Origin: a virus
Reading direction: 5' to 3' (one strand)
Virus record (IMG/VR): IMGVR_UViG_3300047476_001325
Span: 1 to 27,988 of that record
DNA: 27,988 bases
Shown: positions 7,919-27,988 of the stretch, piece after piece
Position numbering within the stretch: the first letter of the stretch is position 1
Layout of the letters: each line of letters opens with the position of its first letter
Position numbers and translations under genes: made by a program
The notes under the pieces: model-generated
What the model was told of the DNA's origin: nothing
The model's database searches: none
The model's input: only the letters and a program-made list of their open reading frames with translations

Positions 7919-8818
7919 ATGGCAAGTTTAATTAGATTAAAACAAATAGAAAGCGGTTCTGCATTGGAAACATCTGCACAAGTAGGTTCGGATTTTAGTG
8001 GTGCTGTATACGAAATCATAGATGGTGCAGGATTAATATCTTCATCTGCACAAGTTGATTTAGTACAAGCATCCAACTACGATGGTTTTGTTGTTCAATT
8101 AGATTTGACAATGAGTAGTGATTTGGAAAGAAATATTGTAAGTGCATCTATATCACAATCGATTTCTATACTTTCTCAAACATATGTGACAACTGCTTCA
8201 TTATTTGATTTAAGTTCTTCGATTGCAACAACGGATAGTGCAAGTCAACATTTGATAGCACAGTTGAGTTCATCCGTTCAAGCAACAACTGGTGACTTTA
8301 GTGCATCGGTTGCTCAACAATTTAGCAGTTCTTATGCAACAATTTACTCAATCAGTTCTTCAATAGATACAACAATAAACAATTTAAGTTCTTCTGTTGC
8401 AACATTATTGAGTGCATCGGAAGCAAATATTATTTCAATCAGTTCTTCTATCAACACATCAATTAGTAGTAGTGATGCAACATTTGCAGCATTTAGTAAT
8501 TCAATTGATGATACAATATTGAATAAGATGAATGTAGTAGGTGTAATTAGTTCTTCTGCACAATTAACAGGTACAACATTGAAGGGTATTACAATCGCAC
8601 CAGTAGACTCAGATTCTTACTCATTAATTATAAGTGGTGCATTGGCAGTTGTAAATGCAACTAATTTAACAGATGGTGGATTTGGAGATAATGATGCAAC
8701 GGTTCCGGCCCAAATTTATTTAGATGGAAACCCAACAACGGCATCTGCACCACCACCTCCAGACCCATCTACAAACAATCAACCTAATTCAAATATGATA
8801 GATATGGGTGAGTTTTAA
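7919..8818 (+). CDS. Ser/Thr-rich coiled-coil fibre protein
   Basis: 299 aa. The N-terminus MASLIRLKQIESGSAL resembles the short anchor found on the other fibre genes here (hydrophobic residues, then Lys/Arg). Linker motifs GLISSSAQVD (about 38-47) and GVISSSAQLTG (about 208-218) bracket a long segment (about 85-200) of Ser-rich heptads such as SSSIDTTINNLSSSVATLL, likely a coiled-coil shaft. Residues about 218-265 are a small beta region (SLIISGALAVVNATN). The end is Pro/Asn-rich (APPPPDPSTNN) and finishes with MIDMGEF. There is no recognisable receptor-binding domain or S74 chaperone, so it may be a shaft or connector. A gap of 95 bases follows. It begins 14 bases after the glycine-rich gene's stop. 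Confidence 0.78.
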   Translation: MASLIRLKQIESGSALETSAQVGSDFSGAVYEIIDGAGLISSSAQVDLVQASNYDGFVVQLDLTMSSDLERNIVSASISQSISILSQTYVTTASLFDLSSSIATTDSASQHLIAQLSSSVQATTGDFSASVAQQFSSSYATIYSISSSIDTTINNLSSSVATLLSASEANIISISSSINTSISSSDATFAAFSNSIDDTILNKMNVVGVISSSAQLTGTTLKGITIAPVDSDSYSLIISGALAVVNATNLTDGGFGDNDATVPAQIYLDGNPTTASAPPPPDPSTNNQPNSNMIDMGEF

Positions 8819-8869
8819 TATAATAAAAAAAATATAACAAAAAAAATCGGTATTAGATAACAAAAATCA

Positions 8870-8877
8870 TATTTATT
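8870..8877 (+). promoter_or_regulatory. TATTTATT element in the 95-base gap before the 1061-aa fibre gene
   Basis: The gap 8819-8913 is A-rich and contains TATTTATT 36 bases before the ATG at 8914. A small inverted repeat, TCGGTA at 8847-8852 and TACCGA at 8877-8882, encloses the stretch that holds the element. No T-tract follows, so it is not a standard terminator. A late promoter or an RNA-processing site is possible. Confidence 0.32.
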
Positions 8878-8913
8878 ACCGAATAACCTTAATTAAGAGA
8901 ATAATATTACAAT

Positions 8914-11900
8914 ATGGCACAAATCATTAGACACAGACGTGGTAGTTTGGAAAGCCTTTCGGCAGCAACCTCATCGTTTCAAAAAGGTGAATTAATAATC
9001 GTATCGGGTTCTTCAAACATCACCGCAACAAATGGTTCCGGTATGGTGTTTGCAGCCGTAGAAAGTGGTTCAATACAGGCAGTAAACAGATTTATTGTTG
9101 GTGATAATGCCCCTAATACATTCGCTGCAGGAACTTATAACGGATTGGTAAAGGGTGTACCTTACTACGCAAGTGGTAGTTCAACTTTATATTTACTTGG
9201 TTCTGACGGAAATGATATTCCAGATTTAACAGGTAACATTACAAACTTTAGTGCATCGGTTGTAACATCATTCTCAGCAAGTAATGCAAGTATAACAGCA
9301 TTATCCGCTTCAGTTGCATCTGTAACTGGTGATTTTAGTTCTTCAGTAGCAACTTCATTCTCAGCAAGTAATGCTAGTATAGTTGCGTTATCTGCTTCTG
9401 TTGCATCTGTAACGGGAGATTTCAGTTCTTCAGTTGCAACTTCATTCTCAGCAAGTAATGCAAGTTTGACTGCATTATCTGCTTCGGTTGCATCGGTAAC
9501 AGGAGACTTTAGTGCTTCAGTTGCTCAAACATTTACAACTCAAAGCCAAAGAATTTCTTCATTAGAATCATTTAGTGGTTCGCAGTTAACTCAAAATACC
9601 GATTTAGCAACTATTACTGGTTCTTTGATTAGTTCTGCATCGACTGCAAAATCTACAAACGATACACAAGATGGTAGATTAGATAATATTGAATTATTTA
9701 GTGCGAGTGTAAATACATCGGTTTCTAACTTAAATTCAACAACTGCAAGTTTAAACACTTCGGTTGCAAACATAAATTCATTTACATCATCTCAATTAAC
9801 TCAAAATACCGAATTAGCAACGGTTACGGGTTCATTGATATCTTCAGCTTCAAATGCAGCAATCGCAATTGCAAATTTAAATGCAAATAGTGGTTCTTAC
9901 GCATTATTAAGTGGTTCGAACATATTCTACGGCACTCAGGTAATTACAGGTTCAATGTATATTACACAAGACTTAGTGGTATATGGTTCATCATCTTTAT
10001 TTAATGTAACCGCATCTGCGTTAGATATCGGACAAAATACGATTGTATTAAATACAGCAACACCTGCAGTTAGATTTGGTGGTATTTCGGTAGCAGATAG
10101 TGGTTCGGGAGCAGGAGCAAGTGGTTCATTATTCTGGGATTCCGTAAATAACCACTGGTTGTATCAACACCCATCTGGTGGTGCTGAATCATATAATTCT
10201 GCTAGATTAATTGCTGGACCTGAAAATAGTGGTTCATTAGGTAATGAGGCTGGATTAACGATTGGTAAAATTACATTAGCAACCGGTGAAGACCATATTA
10301 GTGATTCAATCATAACACAATCACCTGATAATGGTACAATTTCAATAGATGGTGATTTAGATGTAACCGGTTCTGTAACTGCAACTTCATTTAATGGTAC
10401 AATTAACTCAACAAATGGTGTAGTTAGTGGTTCATCTCAAATAACAATTTCTGACACAACCGGATATGGTGACTTTAGTGGTTCTATATCTGCATCAATT
10501 GCAGCAGTAGTTGCAAATGTTGGTAGTGGTGTAGGGGTTTCAATAACAAACCTAAACTCATTTACATCTTCTCAATTAACTCAAAATTCAGACTTAGCAA
10601 CTTATACTGCAAGTGTTGAAACGAGATTAACTGAAATAGGCACAGTAAGTGGTTCATTGATTGCTTCGGCATCAACTGCTAAAACAACAAATGATACACA
10701 AGATACTAGATTAACTAATATCGAATCATTTAGTGCAAGTGTTAATACTTCAATTAGTAATTTAAATAGTACATCCGAAAGTGTAAATACATCGGTAGCA
10801 GCATTAAATAGTTCATCAGCATCTCAACAAGTTAGTATAGATGCATTGAATACGGTAAGTGGTTCAAATTTAATTAGATTAACAAATTTAGAATCAACTT
10901 CTGCAAGTGTAAATACTTCTATAACTAATATAAACTCATTTAGTTCTTCTGTATTAACACAATTAACTGAAATTGGAGTTGTAAGTGGTAGCTTGATTGC
11001 ATCGGCATCAACAGCAAAAACTACAAACGATACGCAGGATGGTAGATTGGGTGAATTAGAATCCAAATCAGCAAGTGTTGATATTTCAATAGCAGCATTA
11101 AACTCATATACATCTTCAAATACTTCTACAAACGCATTGAATGCATTTACTGCATCTGCGGAAACTAGATTTACTGAAATCGGAGTTGTAAGTGGTTCAT
11201 TAATCGCATCAGCATCTGCAGCAAAAACTACAAATGATGCACAAGATGTTTCAATAACTAATTTGAATACATTTAGTGCAAGTGTTAATACATCAGTATC
11301 AGCATTAAATAGTTCATCGGCATCTCAGCAAGTAAGTATTGATGCATTAAACACAGTGAGCGGTTCAAACTTAATTAGATTATCTAATTTAGAAAGTACA
11401 TCTGCAAGTGTTAATACATCGGTATCTAATATTAATACATTTACAGCATCGGCTGATATTAGATTAACAAATTTAGAATCAACTTCTGCAAGTGTTAATA
11501 CTTCAGTAAGTAATTTAAATTCAACAACCGCTAGTTTAAACACTTCGGTATCAGAATTAAACTCTTACTCATCTTCATTAAAAACTGCATTTGAATTTAC
11601 TGGTTCTAATGTTGTAGTATTAGGTGATTTGACCGTAAAAGGAACAACTACATCAGTAGAATCTACAACTATCCAATTAGGTGATAATATCATCGAATTA
11701 AATGGTACAGGAGTCGCAAACGGTGGTTTATTGGTTAAAGACCCAACTGCACCTAATACGGTAAGTGGTTCTTTACTTTGGGATTCTACAAACGATTATT
11801 GGAAAGCTGGAGCAGCTGGAGCTGAATCTAAAGTTCTTTTAGCAGCTGGTGATTCGGTAGTAAGTGGTTCATCTCAAATTACAATTAGTGATACAACTGG

Positions 11901-16945: not shown

Positions 16946-18604
16946 ATGGCAACACTTAAAAATACACAAATAACAAGTAATTCTGGGTATATCGCATTAC
17001 CATCAGGAACAGGTACACAAAGACCATCACCATCAACTGGTATGTTGAGATATAATTCATCTCGTTCTGAAACCGAAGTTTATGATGGTAGTAAATGGAT
17101 AAGTGCTCAAAAGAAATCGGAAAGATATAACACATCTGGATTGGTATGTTTTATAGATGCAGGAAATCCACAATGTTATAGTGGTAATGGAACTACATTA
17201 ACGGATTTATCTGGAAACGGAAATAATTTAACTTTACCTGGTTCAGGTGTAACTTTTAATACAAATAGTGGTGGTTCATTGTATTTTGATGGAACTGCAA
17301 GAGCAAATGTTGCACATCATAGTTCTTTGGATTTTACATCTACACAACAATATACTGCATTAATTTGGGTAAATCCATCATTGGGTGGAGGAACTTGGCA
17401 CGGTTTAATTAGTAAAGGAAATTCACAACAATATGCAGCAACTTTAAATAGTCCAAGTAAATATATACATTATGAAACCAATTATTCATTAGGTCCAATA
17501 AATACACCTACAAATTCAATTGAAGGAAGTAAATGGCAACAAGTTGTAATTAGACACGATGGTTCTTCAAAGGCAACATTTATTAACACAATAAGATGTT
17601 CATATGTAACGGGAACAGTCAGTTCTACTACAAATACCGAAACTTTAAGATTTGGTGAAGGAAATGATGGTGAGTTATTGATTGGATATTTGGGTGCTGT
17701 AATGGTTTATAATAGAGCATTGAGTGATGAAGAAATTGGAATGATATTCAATGAACAAAGAGGAAGATATGGAGTTGATGCACCTTTGGGTTCAGCGTTC
17801 AATCCAGCAGACTCTGCAGCAACTATCAAAGCAATGAATACAAATGCACCGGATGGTGTGTATTATATAAATCTACCAACGGCTGGCCCGACTAAAACAT
17901 ATTGTATTATGGATAGTGCATATGATGGTGGTGGTTGGATGTTGACAATGAAAGCAACAAGAGGAACTACTTTTAATTATGGTGCAAGTTATTGGACAAC
18001 CAGAAACACATTGAATCCTGCTAATTTAAATTTAGACGATGGTGATGCAAAATACGATGCATTCAACTATTTTCAAGGTTCAGATTTGATGGCAAGATGG
18101 CCAGATATTAGTGCAGGTGGTAGTATATCCGGAGTAGGTGTTTGGACATGGTTGGAAAAAAGTTTTAATAGTGGTAGAGCTAGTTCCAGAACCGATTTAG
18201 TAGATTTTTTTACTAATGCGGGTACATATGAAAGTGGGGATGGTGGAACTTATGGTGGATATTTTATCAGAGATGCAAAAACATTTACCGGATGGGCAAG
18301 TGGAGTGTTCTCAAGTCAGGTAGATATTAGATTTTATGGATTTAATTTTAGAAATAATCCATTATATTTTGGTACAACCGATGCTAAAGTAAGATGGGGA
18401 TTTGGTTGGAATGAGAATGGTGAAGGTTTGTATTCATCTCCATCCACATTGGCAGTTGGTCCATATAGAGGTTCGGATGATGTGAGTGGTGGTATTGGTA
18501 TGGATAGTAGATATGGAAACTATTCGGGTGGTGATATGATTGGGTGTTGTCAAGATACAACTGGTATCAATAGAAGTGCAAGAGTAGAAGTCTATATTAG
18601 ATAA
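16946..18604 (+). CDS. IGLPxGT-like anchored LamG plus fibrinogen-like double adhesin
   Basis: 552 aa. Residues 1-55 are the third copy of the anchor (SGYIALPSGTGTQRPSPSTG, RYNSSRSETEVYDGSKW). Residues about 63-275 are LamG: GLVCFIDAGNPQCY, TDLSGNGNNLTL, LYFDGTARANVAH, ALIWVNPSL, KWQQVVIRHD, LIGYLGAVMVYNRALSDEEI, NEQRGRYGV. Residues about 283-552 resemble the fibrinogen-related domain used by phage and animal lectins: NPADSAATIKAMNTNAPDGV, then TYCIMDSAYDGGGWMLTMKA (the GGGW signature), TFNYGASYWTTRNTLNP, KVRWGFGWNENGEG and a final GIGMDSRYGNYSGGD, CCQDTTGINRSARVEVYIR. The protein carries two candidate binding domains in tandem. The start follows the previous stop by one base. A 49-base gap with a TATTTATA element follows. 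Confidence 0.83.
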   Translation: MATLKNTQITSNSGYIALPSGTGTQRPSPSTGMLRYNSSRSETEVYDGSKWISAQKKSERYNTSGLVCFIDAGNPQCYSGNGTTLTDLSGNGNNLTLPGSGVTFNTNSGGSLYFDGTARANVAHHSSLDFTSTQQYTALIWVNPSLGGGTWHGLISKGNSQQYAATLNSPSKYIHYETNYSLGPINTPTNSIEGSKWQQVVIRHDGSSKATFINTIRCSYVTGTVSSTTNTETLRFGEGNDGELLIGYLGAVMVYNRALSDEEIGMIFNEQRGRYGVDAPLGSAFNPADSAATIKAMNTNAPDGVYYINLPTAGPTKTYCIMDSAYDGGGWMLTMKATRGTTFNYGASYWTTRNTLNPANLNLDDGDAKYDAFNYFQGSDLMARWPDISAGGSISGVGVWTWLEKSFNSGRASSRTDLVDFFTNAGTYESGDGGTYGGYFIRDAKTFTGWASGVFSSQVDIRFYGFNFRNNPLYFGTTDAKVRWGFGWNENGEGLYSSPSTLAVGPYRGSDDVSGGIGMDSRYGNYSGGDMIGCCQDTTGINRSARVEVYIR

Positions 18605-18626
18605 TTAAAGAAAAAAGATATTATTA

Positions 18627-18634
18627 TATTTATA
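18627..18634 (+). promoter_or_regulatory. TATTTATA element before the 1389-aa fibre gene
   Basis: TATTTATA is 19 bases before the ATG at 18654 in a 49-base A/T gap. The spacing equals the last element in the window (27783-27790, 19 bases before an ATG). Confidence 0.35.
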
Positions 18635-18653
18635 AGAAACATAAAAGAATTAA

Positions 18654-21600
18654 ATGGCAGCGATATTTCAATTAAGAAGAGGTTCGGGTTCAGTATCTTT
18701 GGTAGATGGTGAATTGTATGTTAATAAAGGACCTGATTCGTTACAATATGCGGTAGGCGATAGAGAAATTACTTTAGCAAAATTAGATGAGTCAAATACG
18801 GGTTCATTTAATTTGAGTGGAGATATTACAGCATCTAATGCATATTTTACAAACAATGTTAAAATTGATGGTAAAATTACTGTCGGTAATGAAACGGGTG
18901 ATACACTTAATATCGTAGCAAGTTTAAGTTCTTCTTTAATTCCAAGCGGTTCCAAATTATTTGATTTAGGTAGTCAAACAAATTATTATAAAACTTTATA
19001 TGTAGAAACAATATCATCATCTTTCATTTCGGGTTCTATTGCAGGTGTTGGAAATATAGAATTATTTTCATCATCAATAGATAATAGAGTTGATAGATTA
19101 GAGGCATCATCATCTTTATATGATAATGCAATGTCTGGTTCAAAGAGATTATATGTTTCTCCAAGTGGTAGTGATAGTAACGATGGTTCTGACCCATCTG
19201 TTCCATTTAGAACAATTAAAGCAGCAGTTGAATCATTGGGTTCAGCAGTTTTTTCAAATGTAAAGAGATATACGATATTTGTAGGTAGTGGTGAATATAC
19301 TGAACAAAACCCAATCGCAGTTCCTCCTGGAGTTGCAATTGTTGGTGATACATTAAGAACGGTAAGATTAACTGCAGCAAATCCAACAAAAGATTTCTTC
19401 CATTGTCACGATTCAAACTATTTTTATGGTTTGAGATTTTTAGATTTAAAACATCCTGCATTCGCATTTTCATTTCCAGCATCTACTGCAACTTCAACAA
19501 TAAGTGGTGGTAGTATAAATTCTATTTCAGTTGTTCATTCTTTAAGTGGATATACCGATGGAACTGGACAAGATTTAGGAATTATTATAGAAGGACCGGA
19601 TAATAGTGGAAGTATAGCAACTGCAACAGCAGATGTTGCCGGTGGTATTATTACTCAAATAAACATAGTAAATGCCGGAACAAACTATTCAGCAAACGAA
19701 AAACCACACATTTCAATACCTGCACCTGTTGCACAAAGACCGGTAATTACAACATCACCATATGTTCAAAACTGTTCTTCAATCACAGGTCCTTTCAATA
19801 CATCCGGTGTTAAAGTTTTACAAGCTTTACCTTATGATGAAGCAACTTTTAATATTGATGAGCAAGGAGCCGGTGGTGGTATTAGAATAGATGGTAATTT
19901 AGTTCATCCAAATTCACCATTAGAATCATTTGTAGCAGATGCATTTACACAAGTTAATCAGGGTGGACCTGGTCATTTAGTAATTAACAAAGGATATGCA
20001 CAATTTGTATCTTGTTTTACTACATTCTGTACTTATGGTTTTAAAACTGCAAATGGTGGTTTTGCAAATATTTCAAATTCAGTAATAGATTTCGGTAAAT
20101 ATGGTTTAGTATCTAAAACTTATTTCCCTCAAACATATAATACAGGCTCATCTTTAGAAACAAAAACTTCGACAGTAAGTGGTTTCGTGATTGATGAAAA
20201 TGGAGCAGGATATACAGGTTCAATTGCAGGAGTAACAATTTCTGGTGGTGGAGCAAGTGTTCAAGCAACTGCAGAAGCAACCGTTAATGCAAATGGTTCA
20301 ATTGATGAAATCGTATTATTAACTGCTGGTAGTGGATATACATCACAACCATCGGTAACAATTGATGCACCAACAGGTGGTGGAGCAATACAAGCTACAA
20401 CTGTTGCTGGTAAAGCATTGATTAGTGGAGTTAGTGAAATATTAATCGGATTGGATAGTGGTAGTAGAGGTGTTGATATTTCTTCAAATATGATTTTAAA
20501 TGGTGTTGATTATTTGGTAACCGATGTACAAGAAGTAAGTGGACAACCAAGTAGAAGGAGAGTAACAACATATCCAGCACCACCATCAGTACAAACAAAC
20601 GACCAAATTAAATTCCACCAATTATCAAACATCTCAACGGGTGGATTGGTAATGGAATATGTTGGTAGTGGTGTAACATACAACGCACTTCCAAAATATG
20701 GTGGAGTTCCTGTTAGAACAAGAGAGATAAACGAATTTGCACCTGGTAGAGTATTTTATTCGACAGTAGATAATATAGGTAATTTAAAAATTGGTGATTT
20801 CTTTTCAGTTAATCAATTAACCGGTGAAGTTACAATTGATGCAAACTCATTTAATCTTTCAGGACTTAACGCAATTGGGCCATTTAGAAGAAATGGTGTA
20901 GCAGTTGGTGTAGTATTACAAGAAGTAAGTAATAATACTACATTATTAAATTCACAAGGTTTATATGGTGAAGATACCGTACCAACACAATACGCAGTTA
21001 AAGAATATGTAAATGCATATACTGCATCTACAAATATTCGTTTAGATAATTTAGAAATAACATCGGCTAGTGTAAAAACATCAGTAGCAGAATTAAATTC
21101 TTATACTGCATCATTAAAAACCGCAATTCAATTAACAGGTTCGACTGTTTCATTCTTAGGAAATATTGTTGTATATGGTACACAATCTATAATTAATTCA
21201 GAAAACTTAGCAGTTGCTGATAACTTAATTTATCTTAACAACGAATCGGCTGTAACAAATCCTGATTTAGGTATTGTTGGTAATTATAATGATGGAACAT
21301 ATGCACATACAGGTATATACAGAGATTCATCGGATGGTATTTGGAGAGTATTTAAAGGGTATACTGCAGAACCAAGTGGTAATATAGATTTAAATGAAGC
21401 ATCTTATAGATATGCTGATTTTTATGCAAATGAAATTAGTGCATCTTCATTGGTTGGTATTGGAAATATAACCACATATTCAACTTCGGTAGATAGCAGA
21501 TTGGATAGTTTAGAAACAAATTCAACAAATGTTGGTGTTTCAATAGATAGTTTAAATGAATTTAGTGCAAGTGTAACATCTTCATTAGAAAAAATATATC

Positions 21601-22823
21601 AAACAACATCTTCATTAAACGCATATACAGAAAGTGTATCATCTTCAATCGGTTGGTTAAATCAACATTCCGAAAGTTTAAATATATGGAGTGGTAGTAT
21701 TAATAGTTTTAGTGGAAATGTAAATACAAGATTTGATAATTTACAAACATATACTACATCGGTAGATGGAAGATTTACAACTTTAGGAACTTATACTGGT
21801 TCCGTTGATACAAGATTTACAACATTACAACAAGTAACTGCATCGTTACTATCATATACGGCATCGGCAAACGAATGGAGTGGAACAATTGATACAAGAT
21901 TTACGACATTACAACAAGTAACATCATCAATTTTACAATATACTGCATCTGTTTCGGAAAGTGTTAGAAATTTAAATATTTTCTCAAGTTCTTATTATGT
22001 TGATAGTGCAAGTTTTGATTACAGAATATCAATTTTAGATCCAGGTAACTTAGATGATGTATTATTAGGATTGAATCAACATACTGCATCGGCTAATACA
22101 AGATTTACCGAAATTGGTATCGTAACTGGTTCATTGATAAATTCTGCTTCTAATGCTTCAACTAGATTGACATCATTAGAAACTGAAACATCGAATTTAG
22201 AATTATACACTCAATCGGTAGAAAATAGATTTACAAATTTAGCTTCATACACAGGAAGTGTAAATAATACAATTGCATCATTAAACTTATTTACTGAATC
22301 TGCAGATGTTAGATTAGATAATATTGAATTATTTACATCTTCTATTAATACAACTATTAAAGCAAAATTAGATGCAGATGGTGTGTTAAGTGGTTCTGCT
22401 CAAGTATTAGGAAATTCAACAATACATAGTGGTTCTATTGGTAATTATCAATTTAATTCGATAGGTGTTGGAACGGAATCTTCGACTGTTGCGGGTGAAA
22501 TTAGAGCTGCAGGTGATGTTACTGCATATTACTCATCGGATATCAGATTAAAAGAAAATATTAATCCAATTGATAATGCATTGACAAAAGTTGAAATGAT
22601 TAGTGGTAATACATATGATTGGAAAGAAGGATTCGAACAAATACATTCTAATAAAGGAAGAGATGTGGGAGTAATAGCGCAAGAATTAGAAAAAGTATTA
22701 CCAGAAGTAGTTACCGAAAGAGAAACTGGATATAAAGCAGTTAATTATGAAAAAATTGTTCCACTTTTAATTGAAGCAATAAAAGAATTATCTGCAAAAA
22801 TTCATAGATTGGAAAACAAATAG
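18654..22823 (+). CDS. Giant beta-helix fibre/spike with coiled-coil shaft and S74 chaperone (1389 aa)
   Basis: The anchor at residues 1-50 (AIFQLRRGSGSVSLVDGELY) is Mtd_N-like. A connector at about 128-150 ends in RVDRLE. Residues about 165-480 read as a right-handed beta-helix: LYVSPSGSDSNDGSDPSVPF, FRTIKAAVESLG, VGSGEYTEQNPIAVPPGVAI, SPYVQNCSSITGPFN, DAFTQVNQGGPGHLVINKGY. Two modules of the GSGY type lie at about 283-360 and 505-585. Residues about 655-765 resemble the domain following such helices in T4-like cyanophage proteins (GGLVMEYVGSGVTYNALP, GRVFYSTVDNIGNLKIGDFF). A display module is at 823-909, then heptad coils with RLDSLE, RLTSLE and RLDNIE. Residues 1295-1389 are S74: SDIRLKENINPIDNALTKV, GVIAQELEKVLPEVV, with Ser1295 and Lys1300. 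This is the largest and most domain-rich gene and may be a tail spike or long fibre. Confidence 0.87.
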   Translation: MAAIFQLRRGSGSVSLVDGELYVNKGPDSLQYAVGDREITLAKLDESNTGSFNLSGDITASNAYFTNNVKIDGKITVGNETGDTLNIVASLSSSLIPSGSKLFDLGSQTNYYKTLYVETISSSFISGSIAGVGNIELFSSSIDNRVDRLEASSSLYDNAMSGSKRLYVSPSGSDSNDGSDPSVPFRTIKAAVESLGSAVFSNVKRYTIFVGSGEYTEQNPIAVPPGVAIVGDTLRTVRLTAANPTKDFFHCHDSNYFYGLRFLDLKHPAFAFSFPASTATSTISGGSINSISVVHSLSGYTDGTGQDLGIIIEGPDNSGSIATATADVAGGIITQINIVNAGTNYSANEKPHISIPAPVAQRPVITTSPYVQNCSSITGPFNTSGVKVLQALPYDEATFNIDEQGAGGGIRIDGNLVHPNSPLESFVADAFTQVNQGGPGHLVINKGYAQFVSCFTTFCTYGFKTANGGFANISNSVIDFGKYGLVSKTYFPQTYNTGSSLETKTSTVSGFVIDENGAGYTGSIAGVTISGGGASVQATAEATVNANGSIDEIVLLTAGSGYTSQPSVTIDAPTGGGAIQATTVAGKALISGVSEILIGLDSGSRGVDISSNMILNGVDYLVTDVQEVSGQPSRRRVTTYPAPPSVQTNDQIKFHQLSNISTGGLVMEYVGSGVTYNALPKYGGVPVRTREINEFAPGRVFYSTVDNIGNLKIGDFFSVNQLTGEVTIDANSFNLSGLNAIGPFRRNGVAVGVVLQEVSNNTTLLNSQGLYGEDTVPTQYAVKEYVNAYTASTNIRLDNLEITSASVKTSVAELNSYTASLKTAIQLTGSTVSFLGNIVVYGTQSIINSENLAVADNLIYLNNESAVTNPDLGIVGNYNDGTYAHTGIYRDSSDGIWRVFKGYTAEPSGNIDLNEASYRYADFYANEISASSLVGIGNITTYSTSVDSRLDSLETNSTNVGVSIDSLNEFSASVTSSLEKIYQTTSSLNAYTESVSSSIGWLNQHSESLNIWSGSINSFSGNVNTRFDNLQTYTTSVDGRFTTLGTYTGSVDTRFTTLQQVTASLLSYTASANEWSGTIDTRFTTLQQVTSSILQYTASVSESVRNLNIFSSSYYVDSASFDYRISILDPGNLDDVLLGLNQHTASANTRFTEIGIVTGSLINSASNASTRLTSLETETSNLELYTQSVENRFTNLASYTGSVNNTIASLNLFTESADVRLDNIELFTSSINTTIKAKLDADGVLSGSAQVLGNSTIHSGSIGNYQFNSIGVGTESSTVAGEIRAAGDVTAYYSSDIRLKENINPIDNALTKVEMISGNTYDWKEGFEQIHSNKGRDVGVIAQELEKVLPEVVTERETGYKAVNYEKIVPLLIEAIKELSAKIHRLENK
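21120..21380 (+). repeat. Shared beta display module, copy in 1389-aa fibre
   Basis: Residues 823-909: LKTAIQLTGSTVSFLGNIVV (starting at 821), DNLIYLNN, DLGIVGNYNDGTYAHTGIY, WRVFKGYTAEP. Closest at DNA level to the copy in the 875-aa fibre, 17 kb away. Confidence 0.88.
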
Positions 22824-22824
22824 A

Positions 22825-22832
22825 TATTTATA
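22825..22832 (+). promoter_or_regulatory. TATTTATA element before the 878-aa fibre gene
   Basis: TATTTATA begins 2 bases after the stop of the 1389-aa gene and ends 48 bases before the ATG at 22881. The rest of the gap is T-rich then A-rich (AGTAAAAAAAGTAAAATAG) with no clear Shine-Dalgarno sequence. Confidence 0.37.
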
Positions 22833-22880
22833 AGGGTATATGGGATTTTTCTGTATTTTAAAGTAAAAAAAGTAAAATAG

Positions 22881-25517
22881 ATGGCACTTAAATTTAGACG
22901 TGGGACAACTGCACAACAATCAGGTTCGTTGGTATTTGGTGAACCATATGTAAACACCACACTAGGAACATTGATAGTTGGTGGACAAAACGGAGATATC
23001 GTACTATCGACATCTGGTACAGGAAGTACAGGTAATTTCGGAGCAATCTCAGGTTCTGGATTAGATATTACCGGAAACGCAAATATAGGTGGTAATTTGA
23101 ATTTAGGTGGACAATTAACAATCGGTGATAATACTTCTGACACCGTTAATGTTGTGGCATCTTTGAGTTCTTCACTTATTCCACAAACAACTAACGCATT
23201 TGATTTAGGTTCTGTCGATAAAATTTGGAGAGACCTTTACATCTCAACAGGTTCAATTAAAGTTGTTGCAAATGGTGCAGTTGTATCGACACTATCTACA
23301 AATGCGGATGGTTCTCAAAATTTTCCAAATGGTTTGAATATATCAGGTTCTCTAATCGTAACAGGTTCGATTAGCACAACGGCTGATAGAATTAATATAG
23401 GTCCAGGAATCGGAAGCCCTGCAACTTATTTTCAAGTAGGTAGAGTTGGTGGTGTAAATATGGAAACCAACACATTGTTAGGTTTTAATGCAATCACATC
23501 ATCCGATGCATCTCTCTCAAACGATACGGCTATTGGTTATAATGCATTAAAGTCAATTACACAGGCTACTAGTAATACTGCAGTAGGTGCCAATGCTGGA
23601 ACAAATTTAGTAAATGGTAATTATAATACACTTATAGGAGTTAGTGCTGGACATTGGCTTTCTGAACAAGAATTCGCAGTAATACCCACAGATAATACTT
23701 ACATGGGTGCATCTGCCGGAAGAAACCATAGAACAGGAAGTCAAAACGCAGCTTTTGGAGCTTATGCATTATATGGTAATGTTAGTACAAAAGATTCAAA
23801 TAAGTTTGATAATAACACAGCAATAGGTCGAGCAGCGGGTAATAAAATAAACGGAGTTTCTTCTAATAATATATACATTGGTGCATCTGCAGGACCCACA
23901 ACTTACACAGAAGAAAGTTATAAATTTTATGTAGGTAATGGTGATAGTGACCAACAACCATATATGTTTGGTAATATGACCAATGCAAGCAGAAGTTTAG
24001 ATATTAACGCAGGATTAAAAATATCAGGTTCATTGGTTGTATCTGGTTCTACATTTTTTAAACAAAAAGTTAGAATAGGAAACAATATCGGTAATAGTTT
24101 AAATTCACAGTTTGATAATGCATTAGAAATAGGTAGTAATCCTGATATTAATGCAGGTGGGGCAATTTTCTTAGGCAATAACATTGGAACATCTACGTGG
24201 GCAATTTTATCCGATACAACCAATGATTTTCAAATTGCAAATAATAATTCATTTAATACTAGAGCAATAATATTATCTAATACTGATAATAAAGTAACAT
24301 TTTTATACAGTGGTTCATTAGCTGATGAAGGTGCCGGATTTCATAATATTAGATTTGATGAAAATGGAATTATACCATATGCTGCAAATCAATATGATTT
24401 GGGTTCTGAAACTAATTATTTTAGAGATTTATACATCTCAACGGGTTCAATTAAAGTAGTAGCAAATGGCGCAGTTGTATCGACACTATCTACAAATGCG
24501 GATGGTTCTCAAAATTTTCCAAATGGTTTAAGTGTAACGGGTTCACTAAAAGTGAGTGGTTCAGTTAAAATAGGAGAGGCGGGATACATAAAAGATACTT
24601 TAGGTAGTATTCATATGTACACATCCGGTGCAAACTATAATAATGGTGGTCAAATACAATTTGGAGGAATATCAGGAAGTGCAGCAACGGGAGTAGACAA
24701 CTACATTAGTTTCAATGGTGCACCAACTACTGCAGCTTCTAATACATCGGTTACTATATGGGGAGATAATTCAGGCGGTGGTGCAGCCCTTTTCTTAAAT
24801 AGAAAAAGTTCTCAAGGTGTAGAAAGTTGGGGATATACCCCATGGACAATTGGTGTGGACTTAGGTGCTACATCAACACCTAACGGATTATATATAGGTA
24901 CAGGAAACACATTTTTAAATAGGTCGATAGAATTTAATTATAAAGGATTAACGCCAAACATTTTATTTTCAGGGTCCGGTATTATACCAGCTGAAGCTAA
25001 TATTTACGATTTAGGAACTCCAACAAAACCTTGGAGAGAAATATATGTTTCAACTGGTTCAATTAATTTTGTAAATAATGGAACAGTTGTATCTACATTA
25101 TCTACTAATCCGGATGGCTCTCAAAATTTTCCAAAAGGTTTGAATATATCGGGTTCTTTAATCGTAACCGGTTCAATCACTGCTACGGGTGATGTAGTAG
25201 CTTACTCAACTTCAGATAAAAGACACAAAAATAATATCGTTGTAATTTCAGATGCTTTATCAAAAGTAACTAAATTAAATGGTGTAACTTGGGAATGGAA
25301 TGATGATGTTGATGTAATAACTAAAGAAACACCTAAGACTGGTTTGATTGCACAAGAAGTGCAAGAAGTTTTACCGGAAGTGGTGAAAGAAAGAGAAGAT
25401 GGTTTCTTAGCATTAGATTATTCAAAAATGATGGGTTTAATGGTAGAAGCAATCAAAGAACAACAAGAACAAATTAATTCTTTATTAACAAAGATAAACG
25501 AATTGGAAAATAAATAA
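22881..25517 (+). CDS. Fibre with YadA-like head repeats and S74 chaperone (878 aa)
   Basis: Residues 1-60 (MALKFRRGTTAQQSGSLVFG, EPYVNTTLGTLIVGG) closely match the Mtd_N docking domain. Three module copies of the form FDLGS-WRDLYISTGSI-VVSTLSTNADGSQNFP lie at about 98-163, 497-562 and 701-766. Residues about 198-355 hold NTAIGYNAL, NTAVGANAG, NTLIGVSAG, NTYMGASAG, NTAIGRAAG and NIYIGASAG, a beta-roll repeat like the heads of trimeric autotransporters such as YadA. Residues 778-878 are S74: SDKRHKNNIVVISDALSKV, GLIAQEVQEVLPEVV, then a coiled coil. Ser778 and Lys783 fit the cleavage dyad. The start codon at 22881 is confirmed by the anchor motif. A paralogue with the same first 32 bases follows at 25572. 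Confidence 0.88.
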   Translation: MALKFRRGTTAQQSGSLVFGEPYVNTTLGTLIVGGQNGDIVLSTSGTGSTGNFGAISGSGLDITGNANIGGNLNLGGQLTIGDNTSDTVNVVASLSSSLIPQTTNAFDLGSVDKIWRDLYISTGSIKVVANGAVVSTLSTNADGSQNFPNGLNISGSLIVTGSISTTADRINIGPGIGSPATYFQVGRVGGVNMETNTLLGFNAITSSDASLSNDTAIGYNALKSITQATSNTAVGANAGTNLVNGNYNTLIGVSAGHWLSEQEFAVIPTDNTYMGASAGRNHRTGSQNAAFGAYALYGNVSTKDSNKFDNNTAIGRAAGNKINGVSSNNIYIGASAGPTTYTEESYKFYVGNGDSDQQPYMFGNMTNASRSLDINAGLKISGSLVVSGSTFFKQKVRIGNNIGNSLNSQFDNALEIGSNPDINAGGAIFLGNNIGTSTWAILSDTTNDFQIANNNSFNTRAIILSNTDNKVTFLYSGSLADEGAGFHNIRFDENGIIPYAANQYDLGSETNYFRDLYISTGSIKVVANGAVVSTLSTNADGSQNFPNGLSVTGSLKVSGSVKIGEAGYIKDTLGSIHMYTSGANYNNGGQIQFGGISGSAATGVDNYISFNGAPTTAASNTSVTIWGDNSGGGAALFLNRKSSQGVESWGYTPWTIGVDLGATSTPNGLYIGTGNTFLNRSIEFNYKGLTPNILFSGSGIIPAEANIYDLGTPTKPWREIYVSTGSINFVNNGTVVSTLSTNPDGSQNFPKGLNISGSLIVTGSITATGDVVAYSTSDKRHKNNIVVISDALSKVTKLNGVTWEWNDDVDVITKETPKTGLIAQEVQEVLPEVVKEREDGFLALDYSKMMGLMVEAIKEQQEQINSLLTKINELENK
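23277..23335 (+). repeat. 59-bp perfect direct repeat, copy 1
   Basis: Identical over 59 bases to 24471-24529, inside the first and second module copies of the 878-aa fibre. It begins GCAGTTGTATCGACAC and ends CCAAATGGTTT. The copies lie 1194 bases apart (398 codons), in the same frame. Confidence 0.95.
24471..24529 (+). repeat. 59-bp perfect direct repeat, copy 2
   Basis: Second copy of the 59-base repeat. A third, diverged copy of the same protein module lies at about 24981-25178. Confidence 0.95.
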
Positions 25518-25526
25518 ATATTTATT
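25513..25526 (+). promoter_or_regulatory. Palindrome containing TATTTATT element before the 408-aa fibre gene
   Basis: AATAAATATTTATT is a perfect 14-base palindrome that overlaps the stop of the 878-aa gene. TATTTATT (25519-25526) ends 45 bases before the ATG at 25572. Because it is palindromic it also reads AATAAATA, close to the T4 late promoter TATAAATA, on both strands. Confidence 0.35.
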
Positions 25527-25571
25527 GTTATAATAAACATTTTTAACCGTACTAAAAAAAAGGTAAACTAG

Positions 25572-26798
25572 ATGGCACTTAAATTTAGACGTGGGACAAC
25601 CGCACAGAAATCAGGTTCGTTGGCATTCGGAGAACCATATGTAAACACTACATTAGGAACTCTACAAATCGGTGGACCTACCGGTGATATCACGCTAAGT
25701 TCAACGGGTACAGGAAGTACGGGTAATTTTGGAGCAATTTCCGGCTCTGGATTAGACATTACCGGAAACGCAAACATTGCAGGTAACTTAACATTGGGTG
25801 GACAATTGACAATAGGAGATAATACATCCGATGTTGTTAATGTTGTAGCATCTTTGAGTTCTTCTCTTATACCATCTGAAACAAATGTGTTTGATTTGGG
25901 TTCTGCAACAAAAATTTGGAGAGACCTTTATATTTCAACAGGTTCAATTAAATTAGTAAACCCAACAAATAATACGGTTGTTAGTACAATTTCCACAAAT
26001 GCAGATGGAACAACTAGCTTTGATGGGTTGGTTCGTGCAAATCAAGGTATATTCATACCAAATAGTGTACAAGTAAGTGGTACAGGTGGTTTGGGCATTG
26101 GTGGTTATGGTGATAGATTGATGTTAGGAACTTCTGGTAGTGCAGGAGTGGGACAACAAAGTTTGATTTTTGCGGATACTAATAGTCACGCATACACATT
26201 CCCAGCAGCAGATGGTACTATTGCTTTAACAACGGATTTAAGTTCAGGAACAACTTCAGTTTCTAACTTAAACTCATTTAGCTCTTCAGCTTTAACTAGA
26301 TTTGGTAATTTAGAATCTATATCAGCAAGTTTATTAGTTGAAACTGCAAACTTGGAATTGTTTACTGCAAGTTTAAGTACAACTTCTAATGTAAGATTTG
26401 GTTCATTGGGTATTGGAATGGTAGCAAGTGGTACAAGTGGTAGAATAGATGCAGCAAATGATATCGTAGCATTTTCAACTTCAGATGTTAGATTAAAAGA
26501 AAATATCGTTGCAATTCCAAACGCAATCGACAAAATTAGAAAGATTAGTGGTAACACTTATGATTGGAGAGCAGAATTGAAAGATGTTCATGGATATGAA
26601 GGAAATGATGTGGGAGTTATTGCACAAGAAGTTGAAGCAGTATTACCACAATTAGTACAAGATAGAGATAACGGATATAAAGCCGTAAAATATGACAAAT
26701 TAGTTGCATTATTAATCGAAGGTATTAAAGAGCAACAACAACATATCGATAATTTAACAATTCAAGTAGAAGAGTTAAAGAAACAAAAAGGTTTATAA
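25572..26798 (+). CDS. Short S74 fibre, paralogue of the 878-aa protein (408 aa)
   Basis: Residues 1-125 match the start of the 878-aa fibre at most positions: MALKFRRGTTAQKSGSLAFG, TGSTGNFGAISGSGLDITG, NVVASLSSSLIP, IWRDLYISTGSIK. After one display module (VVSTISTNADGTTSF) the protein goes to GLGIGGYGDRLMLGTSGSAG (about 174-193), TFPAADGTIALTTDL, a short coil with RFGNLE, and S74 at 304-408: SDVRLKENIVAIPNAI, GVIAQEVEAVLPQLVQ, then a coil ending in KKQKGL. Ser304 and Lys309 fit the dyad. It lacks the YadA-like head and the extra module copies, so it looks like a duplicated and trimmed (or ancestral short) version of its neighbour. The next gene, a glycosyltransferase, begins 4 bases later. 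Confidence 0.87.
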   Translation: MALKFRRGTTAQKSGSLAFGEPYVNTTLGTLQIGGPTGDITLSSTGTGSTGNFGAISGSGLDITGNANIAGNLTLGGQLTIGDNTSDVVNVVASLSSSLIPSETNVFDLGSATKIWRDLYISTGSIKLVNPTNNTVVSTISTNADGTTSFDGLVRANQGIFIPNSVQVSGTGGLGIGGYGDRLMLGTSGSAGVGQQSLIFADTNSHAYTFPAADGTIALTTDLSSGTTSVSNLNSFSSSALTRFGNLESISASLLVETANLELFTASLSTTSNVRFGSLGIGMVASGTSGRIDAANDIVAFSTSDVRLKENIVAIPNAIDKIRKISGNTYDWRAELKDVHGYEGNDVGVIAQEVEAVLPQLVQDRDNGYKAVKYDKLVALLIEGIKEQQQHIDNLTIQVEELKKQKGL

Positions 26799-26802
26799 TT
26801 TA

Positions 26803-27798
26803 ATGTATGATGTTTACTACACCACCGCTGGAGGACCTTGGTTTAACAGCGGTGCTGATATATGGGTAACTGAATGGATAAAAGAAGTGGCACCTCACTT
26901 AGAAGTAAAGCCACTTTTACTTTTCCATAGAAAAAAACCTGTAAATTACGAAGAATTTCCAATTGATATTGACCATATTTGGGAAACCAACGAAGATGAA
27001 ATTATTAAAATCTTTGATGGTGCCAGAAAAATACACATTCTTCATGGTCATTACACACCGACAAAAGCTGTTTATCAAAATTTGGATAAGATTGATTCTA
27101 TTGTTTTCCATAATCTTACTAAAGTTTCTTTAATTGCACAAATGCAAAAGGAAGAATATTTGCATTGGTATGGTAATTGGGAATATGAAAGTGAATTGAT
27201 TAATAAAATCAAAAATAAAATTTGGGTAGGGTTATATCATTTTCCATATGAAACGGAAAATTTACATCATATTCCAAATTCTTATGAGTTTACAGAAAAT
27301 AAACAATTAATAGATTCGTTTAATGTAGGATTTGCAGCTAGAGCAGAAGGTAGAAAAAATCCAGAATATATGGATGGTTTGCCAAGTTTTATTTCCACTA
27401 ATTCGGAAACATTTAATAAATATTACAAACAAAAATACGGATATAAATTTGAAAAATCGAAAATATATAAATTTGATTTTAAATTCAAAAATAGATTTTA
27501 TGGACTTGATTGGGGGATATCTCATTCTTGCTTTGAATATGAACCATTTGGATATGGGATATTTGAAGCAGTGGATTGGGGTAAACTTCCGATATTACAT
27601 GAAAAATGGCACGTTCCTCTTGATTACAAATATAAAGCAGATAGTGCCGAATCATTTAAACAAACATACGAAACAATTTGTAAAGATGATTATGAAACCC
27701 GTAAAGAGCAATTTAATAAATTAAAAAATTGGATGAAAACTCATTTTTCAGACAAACAATTGTGGAAACAAAAACTTTTAGATATTTATAACAGATAA
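26803..27798 (+). CDS. GT-B fold glycosyltransferase (GT4-like)
   Basis: 331 aa. The N-terminal half has a GGPWFNSGADIWVTEWIKEV start (a glycine loop and helix such as open GT-B enzymes) and KIHILHGHYTP, then SIVFHNLTKVSLIAQMQ. The C-terminal half has FNVGFAARAEGRKNPEYMDG and, at about residues 246-265, EPFGYGIFEAVDWGKLPILH. That EPFG-x4-EA-x3-G-xPI pattern is the donor-sugar binding motif of GT4-type transferases. The sugar donor and acceptor cannot be read. It has no signal peptide or membrane helix, so it acts in the host cytoplasm. Its place right after Ser/Thr-rich fibre genes suggests virion-protein glycosylation, but modification of a host glycan or DNA base is possible. The codon usage is like its neighbours. 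It is the only obvious enzyme in the window besides the S74 domains. Confidence 0.78.
   Translation: MYDVYYTTAGGPWFNSGADIWVTEWIKEVAPHLEVKPLLLFHRKKPVNYEEFPIDIDHIWETNEDEIIKIFDGARKIHILHGHYTPTKAVYQNLDKIDSIVFHNLTKVSLIAQMQKEEYLHWYGNWEYESELINKIKNKIWVGLYHFPYETENLHHIPNSYEFTENKQLIDSFNVGFAARAEGRKNPEYMDGLPSFISTNSETFNKYYKQKYGYKFEKSKIYKFDFKFKNRFYGLDWGISHSCFEYEPFGYGIFEAVDWGKLPILHEKWHVPLDYKYKADSAESFKQTYETICKDDYETRKEQFNKLKNWMKTHFSDKQLWKQKLLDIYNR
27783..27790 (+). promoter_or_regulatory. TATTTATA element within the end of the glycosyltransferase gene
   Basis: TATTTATA in the last codons (Asp-Ile-Tyr) of the glycosyltransferase, 19 bases before the ATG at 27810. Because it is coding sequence it could be chance, but the spacing equals that at 18627. 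Confidence 0.25.
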
Positions 27799-27809
27799 CT
27801 TATACTATT

Positions 27810-27988
27810 ATGGCAAGAACCAATTTATCATTAGGAAATTTATATAGAGCAGTAAGTGGTTCGGTAAGAACAGGCGCTGTTTCTTTGGGTGGATTAAATG
27901 GAGGTACATCAAATACAAATATGCAAGGATTCTCATTTGATTCCGTTGTAGTAACCGTTCCAACATTTACATATATTGTAGAAAGCAC
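27810..27988 (+). CDS. Probable virion structural protein (3' end beyond window)
   Basis: An ATG 11 bases after the glycosyltransferase stop opens a frame that stays open for 59 codons to the window edge. The product starts MARTNLSLGNLYRAVSGSVR, continues with Gly/Ser/Thr-rich sequence (GAVSLGGLNGGTSNTN) and then SFDSVVVTVPTFTYIVES, which looks like a beta strand region. The style (SGS, Ser/Thr/Gly richness, no Cys) matches the preceding virion genes. No family is assigned. Confidence 0.65.
   Translation, partial: MARTNLSLGNLYRAVSGSVRTGAVSLGGLNGGTSNTNMQGFSFDSVVVTVPTFTYIVES

Follow-up and report, generated by a model that had tools for sequence, protein, structure and literature searches.

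The window analysed here, an IMG/VR virus record classed as linear, is a stretch of 27,988 bases. Many of its PHROG matches are to T4-type fibre and baseplate families. Because of these matches, and of a tail-sheath-like protein recognised in the translation downstream in the related locus L022, the window probably belongs to a contractile-tailed phage. Fibre genes with an S74 domain start in tandem at 18654, 22881 and 25572; they match tail-fibre PHROGs, and their order is kept in many relatives. No tRNA was found in the window.

The second and third of these genes encode proteins of 878 and 408 amino acids, and their domain order (Table 1) was derived from profile searches. As in the fibres with S74 (endosialidase-type) intramolecular chaperones, a Peptidase_S74 domain closes both proteins. 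It scores above the curated cut-off of 22 bits in each, with 56.3 bits in the 408-aa protein. The start of the anchor of the 878-aa protein is weakly Mtd_N-like (20.9 bits, under the Pfam cut-off). The first-pass annotation called the head domain (HEAD) YadA-like. NTAIG-type repeats are visible in it, but it has no match to the Pfam YadA models, so that label is not confirmed. The structure model of HEAD is of low confidence (pLDDT 59), with no match in the PDB at E ≤ 0.001, and the model of D1-M2-D2-M3 was unusable (pLDDT 37).

Table 1. Features of the two fibre genes and of the repeat within the larger one (positions in the window).
Feature	Positions	Strand	Basis
878-aa fibre gene, anchor-M1-HEAD-D1-M2-D2-M3-S74 (type A)	22881..25517	+	ORF, tail-fibre PHROGs, profile map
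Conserved N-terminal anchor, aa 1–97	22881..23171	+	alignment with 7 relatives
Joint module M1, aa 98–164	23172..23372	+	
59-bp exact repeat, copy 1 (M1 core)	23277..23335	+	
HEAD domain, NTAIG-type repeats, aa 168–378	23382..24014	+	
Domain D1, aa 396–495	24066..24365	+	homologues in L032 gene 1 and L022
Joint module M2, aa 496–562, best read as chimeric (M2-type front, M1-type back)	24366..24566	+	
59-bp exact repeat, copy 2 (M2 core)	24471..24529	+	
Domain D2, aa 563–699	24567..24977	+	IMG/VR: no relative found
Joint module M3, aa 700–766	24978..25178	+	
S74 chaperone type A, aa 767–878	25179..25514	+	Pfam Peptidase_S74, 61.8 bits
408-aa paralogue, anchor-M-short shaft-S74 (type B)	25572..26798	+	
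Joint module of the 408-aa gene, aa 98–166, diverged core	25863..26069	+	

The element that recurs between these domains is a 67-aa module, M, with the consensus SLIPxxxNxxDLGSxxxxWRDLYISTGSIxxVxNGxVVSTLSTNADGSQNFPxGL. It consists of a DLGS...WRDLYISTGSI half, a VVSTLSTNADGSQNFPNG core and an SGS-rich tail. The 878-aa gene has three copies of it and the 408-aa paralogue has one. In the DNA of the larger gene the copies are seen as a 198-nt repeat starting at 23176, 24370 and 24982, and a fourth, shorter match lies inside the 408-aa gene.

The first-pass annotation had drawn attention to a perfect 59-bp repeat in the larger gene. Its two copies are indeed 100% identical, with the bases on either side differing. 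They are spaced by 1194 bp, a multiple of three, and begin at codons 133 and 531 of the reading frame. This pair is the longest exact repeat within the window. It is far beyond chance: when the codons of the gene were shuffled 300 times, the maximum exact repeat length had a mean of 12 nt and did not go above 17 nt. The exact identity is the core of the longer repeat, which extends over 198 nt at 79%; identity is 72% in the 100 nt upstream of the core and 64% in the 39 nt downstream. The third copy, M3, is in frame and keeps 52 of the 59 core bases; the first-pass annotation described the other two copies only. Predicted DNA folding of the repeat and scans for promoters and terminators gave nothing unusual. 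Long in-frame repeats are not peculiar to the 878-aa gene. Of the 76 genes of the family, 33 contain exact repeats of 24 nt or more, in phase in every case, and since such repeats are common the 59-bp repeat is not exceptional in this respect.

Alignment of the anchor yielded 80 loci, with 76 distinct genes that carry it. The relatives are uncultured virus contigs throughout, and alignments of such diverged fibres are approximate. In most of the 76 genes a recognisable M directly follows the anchor. At the score used, eight genes have two or three copies of M, and HEAD is present in 13. Of 2824 gene pairs whose DNA homology begins in the anchor, 2473 lose it within M1, mostly in its 5′ half; the pairs are not independent, so these counts are a description and not a test. 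In a subset of pairs, the 59-bp core is an additional shared stretch. The module and its reading frame are established, as is its place where the anchor meets the variable body, and M is usually the boundary between the two. Several architectures of the family were found again in independent contigs; the window's own, with three copies of M, was found in one contig only, the window. Searches of IMG/VR with single-sequence patterns for HEAD alone or D2 alone gave no confirmed relative. In bacterial or archaeal genomes, no relatives were confirmed. Among named phages there was no close DNA relative; the best matches fell mainly in the S74 end and were all below 60% identity.

The domains of these fibres are distributed as a mosaic, both between phages and between paralogues. 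G002 (locus L032) has two adjacent fibre genes, and the gene that follows them is the one found there in the window too. Its first gene, anchor-M1-D1-M2-S74A, is orthologous to the 878-aa gene but lacks HEAD and D2, and a related head sits in its second gene, anchor-M1-HEAD-S74B. In the window, by contrast, the head is in the first gene and the second has none, and in L036 both genes bear heads. The first gene of L036 has aa 1–410 (anchor-M1-HEAD) in common with the second gene of L032, at 95.9% DNA identity, but ends in S74A. Against the first gene of L032, its anchor-M1 part (aa 1–154) is 91% identical and its S74A 92%. The head has therefore moved relative to the chaperones.

Other loci show joints of the same kind. 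In L058, aa 1–387 match the first gene of L035 (87% at the DNA level), and M2-HEAD (aa 395–652) matches M1-HEAD (aa 109–366) of the second gene of L035 (83%). The L058–L061 locus has one fibre gene where L035 has two. The single gene of L022 has the front of a first gene (M1-D1) and the back of a second gene (an M2 like the M1 of other genes, and S74B), joined at M2. Both L022 and L058 thus have the appearance of two paralogues fused at M. Comparison points to domain exchange with joints at M in L022, between both genes of L032 and the first gene of L036, and between L058 and both genes of L035. In L040 and L083, too, M2 and the sequence downstream of it match M1 and the downstream sequence of other genes. 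A length difference is visible at another motif. In the parts that they have in common, the fibre genes L074:7812–9629 and L076:1112–3157 are 99.4% identical. What sets them apart is a 228-bp segment that keeps the frame, with its junction in an exact repeat of 12 bp inside the shaft motif NGVVSGSSQ. Repeat-associated in-frame length change therefore occurs in this fibre family, at a motif other than M.

The relatives also bear on the origin of the identical cores in the window. Between M1 and M2 of the 878-aa gene, synonymous differences are absent from the 19 core codons but affect 9 of the 23 immediately upstream (p = 0.002). M1 of L022 and M1 of the first gene of L032 each have a core that is 97% identical to this one. 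The M2 core together with its 3′ flank matches M1 of L032 at 90.7% over 172 bp. In the 3′ flank, 12 of 15 residues are identical to L032 M1, with no synonymous differences among them, and this flank matches M1 of its own gene poorly. Over core and flank, 1 of 30 codons for identical residues differs synonymously from L032 M1, compared with 33 of 85 between the anchors of the 878-aa gene and the first gene of L032 (p = 0.0001). M2 is chimeric, because its 5′ half follows D1 as it does in L032 and L022, while its 3′ half matches M1 of L032. It is best read as an M2-type front with an M1-type back, the structure expected if an M1-D2 allele had been joined at M2. The exact identity over 59 bp most likely marks the event that joined the M1-type 3′ half to the M2 5′ half.

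The 59-bp repeat is the core of this reiterated module, and we consider it probable that M is a shaft joint at which recombination has stacked and swapped fibre domains in the course of evolution. M links a conserved tail-binding anchor, interchangeable domains that are probably receptor-binding, and the C-terminal S74 chaperone. Homologous recombination between copies of M could take place between phages in mixed infection, between neighbouring paralogues or within one gene. M is a short, conserved module whose reading frame is the same at every occurrence, so the resulting fibres would stay in frame while domains are exchanged, stacked or lost. The 878-aa gene has stacked three copies. The mosaic among the relatives suggests that recombination at M produced it, and the domain changes may alter host range. 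These comparisons are between diverged genes, and no pair that differs solely by an M-M event was found among them. A stronger proposal is that M is a dedicated, homogenised joint at which receptor-domain cassettes are added and removed at appreciable frequency within a population, so that sibling virions vary in fibre length and specificity. We regard this as unlikely.

The absence of synonymous differences between the two cores, set in flanks of 64–72% identity, is also what recent gene conversion within the gene would leave, if the M1 core had overwritten that of M2, or the reverse, with no domain gained or lost. Such conversion, suggested in the first-pass annotation, is possible, though the less likely candidate. 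It is not required, as two other phages have nearly the same core in M1, and past the core the 3′ flank of M2 resembles M1 of another phage and not M1 of its own gene. Gene conversion and cross-gene joining are hard to separate with the present data, and both are recombination at M. Constraint on the protein would instead account for the identity by a shaft joint that must keep its sequence, with recombination playing no role. The amino acids of the core are conserved among several relatives, and such constraint could explain part of the conservation. As the whole explanation it is improbable. Synonymous differences in the core are also few, at 1 of 18 in one comparison (anchor: 33 of 85, p = 0.005) and 2 of 19 in the other (anchor: 31 of 88, p = 0.05), and the 408-aa gene of the same genome has a diverged core, with 13 of 19 residues identical.

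The first-pass annotation read the repeat as a route for switching between long and short fibres, with M1-M2 recombination in the living population recurrently removing 398 codons. A long, perfect, in-frame repeat is consistent with this, and the deletion would indeed fall in frame at a module boundary, removing D1 along with the head. Length change at a repeat is seen in L074 and L076, and in passaged phage PP01 deletions of 579–686 bp in gp37 arose repeatedly (PMC6027323). PP01 remained viable after losing about 600 bp from this gene and adsorbed faster; the accessible part of that report states no repeat-mediated origin of the deletions. We nevertheless hold such a switch to be very unlikely. 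A segment deleted between direct repeats cannot return by the same route; for a switch it would have to be regained by exchange. No recombinase was present among the proteins scanned, which were a subset of the ORFs of a record that may be a fragment, and no inverted repeats were found in 18000–27988 at the settings used. The predicted product, anchor-M1-D2-M3-S74 (480 aa), was not found in IMG/VR with exact patterns; this is weak evidence because no relatives of D2 were found at all. The pattern joining sequence upstream of M1 to sequence downstream of M2 occurred in L023/G002 only, and not as a deletion form. Head-less forms do exist in related phages, as had been proposed, in the first gene of L032 (G002) and in L022. 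The G002 orthologue, however, lacks the head while keeping M1, D1 and M2, so its boundaries differ from those of an M1-M2 event and not all rearrangements use M. Long in-frame repeats are, moreover, widespread in the family. Nothing in these data points to reversible alternation or to alternation within a population, and the first-pass interpretation stands in so far as recombination at M fits the mosaic seen in the relatives.

The 408-aa gene had been taken for a version of the larger gene without the head. It was rejected as a deletion derivative, since its S74 is of a different type (45% identity), and its module core and gene position differ as well. It occupies the second fibre position, which bears a head in other phages.

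Assemblers are often run with a k-mer size slightly below 59 bp, and metagenome assemblies can create chimeras at repeats. The window is an IMG/VR virus contig and alone has the full architecture with three copies of M, as might result if two alleles or paralogues of the fibre gene had been merged during assembly at the 59 bp that they share. The chance of this appears slight. The frame is open across all three modules, M3 lies outside the exact repeat, and the order D1-M2 is the same in L032 and L022. Other lineages, too, have genes with several copies of M, and one of these was found in four contigs (L058–L061).

The preferred reading, M as a recombination joint, places this gene within a kind of diversification that is already known, the modular shuffling of T4-like fibres, of which it is a well-resolved further case. 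A 1998 study reportedly identified short conserved motifs flanking variable receptor domains as sites of exchange in the fibre locus of myoviruses. As in this shuffling of the T4 gp37/38 type, a conserved motif here flanks variable domains and probably acts as a place of exchange. The present case differs in that the motif is a shaft module of 67 aa, with as many as three copies in one gene, and in that the exchange involves tandem paralogues that carry S74 chaperones. Tetart et al. are said to have found in 1996 that duplications of a small adhesin domain in the tail fibre broadened the host range of T4. Here too the duplication is inside a fibre gene, but the duplicated element is the joint between domains and, as far as can be told, not the part in contact with the receptor. 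For T4-type fibres, exchange at conserved motifs and domain duplication are established, through work whose titles are cited in two reports (PMC6027323, PMC6957217). Smug et al. 2023 described recent domain shuffling in the tail fibres of different phages and wide mosaicism of receptor-binding proteins (PMC10684548); theirs is a survey of protein families, and module M does not appear in its accessible part.

The 878-aa gene and its relatives provide a clear natural case of how a fibre gene can grow and shrink in frame by means of one short module joining anchor, variable domains and chaperone. The head can be traced in either tandem paralogue, with either chaperone type, across related environmental phages. 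Should M1-M2 recombination products appear in population data, they would allow the rate of fibre remodelling to be measured directly.

Some neighbouring genes are also of interest. Positions 26803–27798 encode a 331-aa protein without a Pfam match, and a homologue of it lies directly 3′ of the fibre genes in all 23 of the 23 tabulated loci. A 552-aa protein (16946–18604) has a concanavalin-like (Laminin_G_3) domain and a further C-terminal region, and is possibly another binding protein. In the tail cluster of L022, the protein at 8333–9304 contains a Hint/intein-like stretch, LLFGTKV...VEDL.VGD.I...THPVFAYD, recognised by eye only; a similar ORF is present in L032. A preceding fibre gene of 934 aa in L005 (642–3443) has an exact in-frame repeat of 103 nt, at codons 535 and 743, longer than that in the window, and several more of 39–46 nt.
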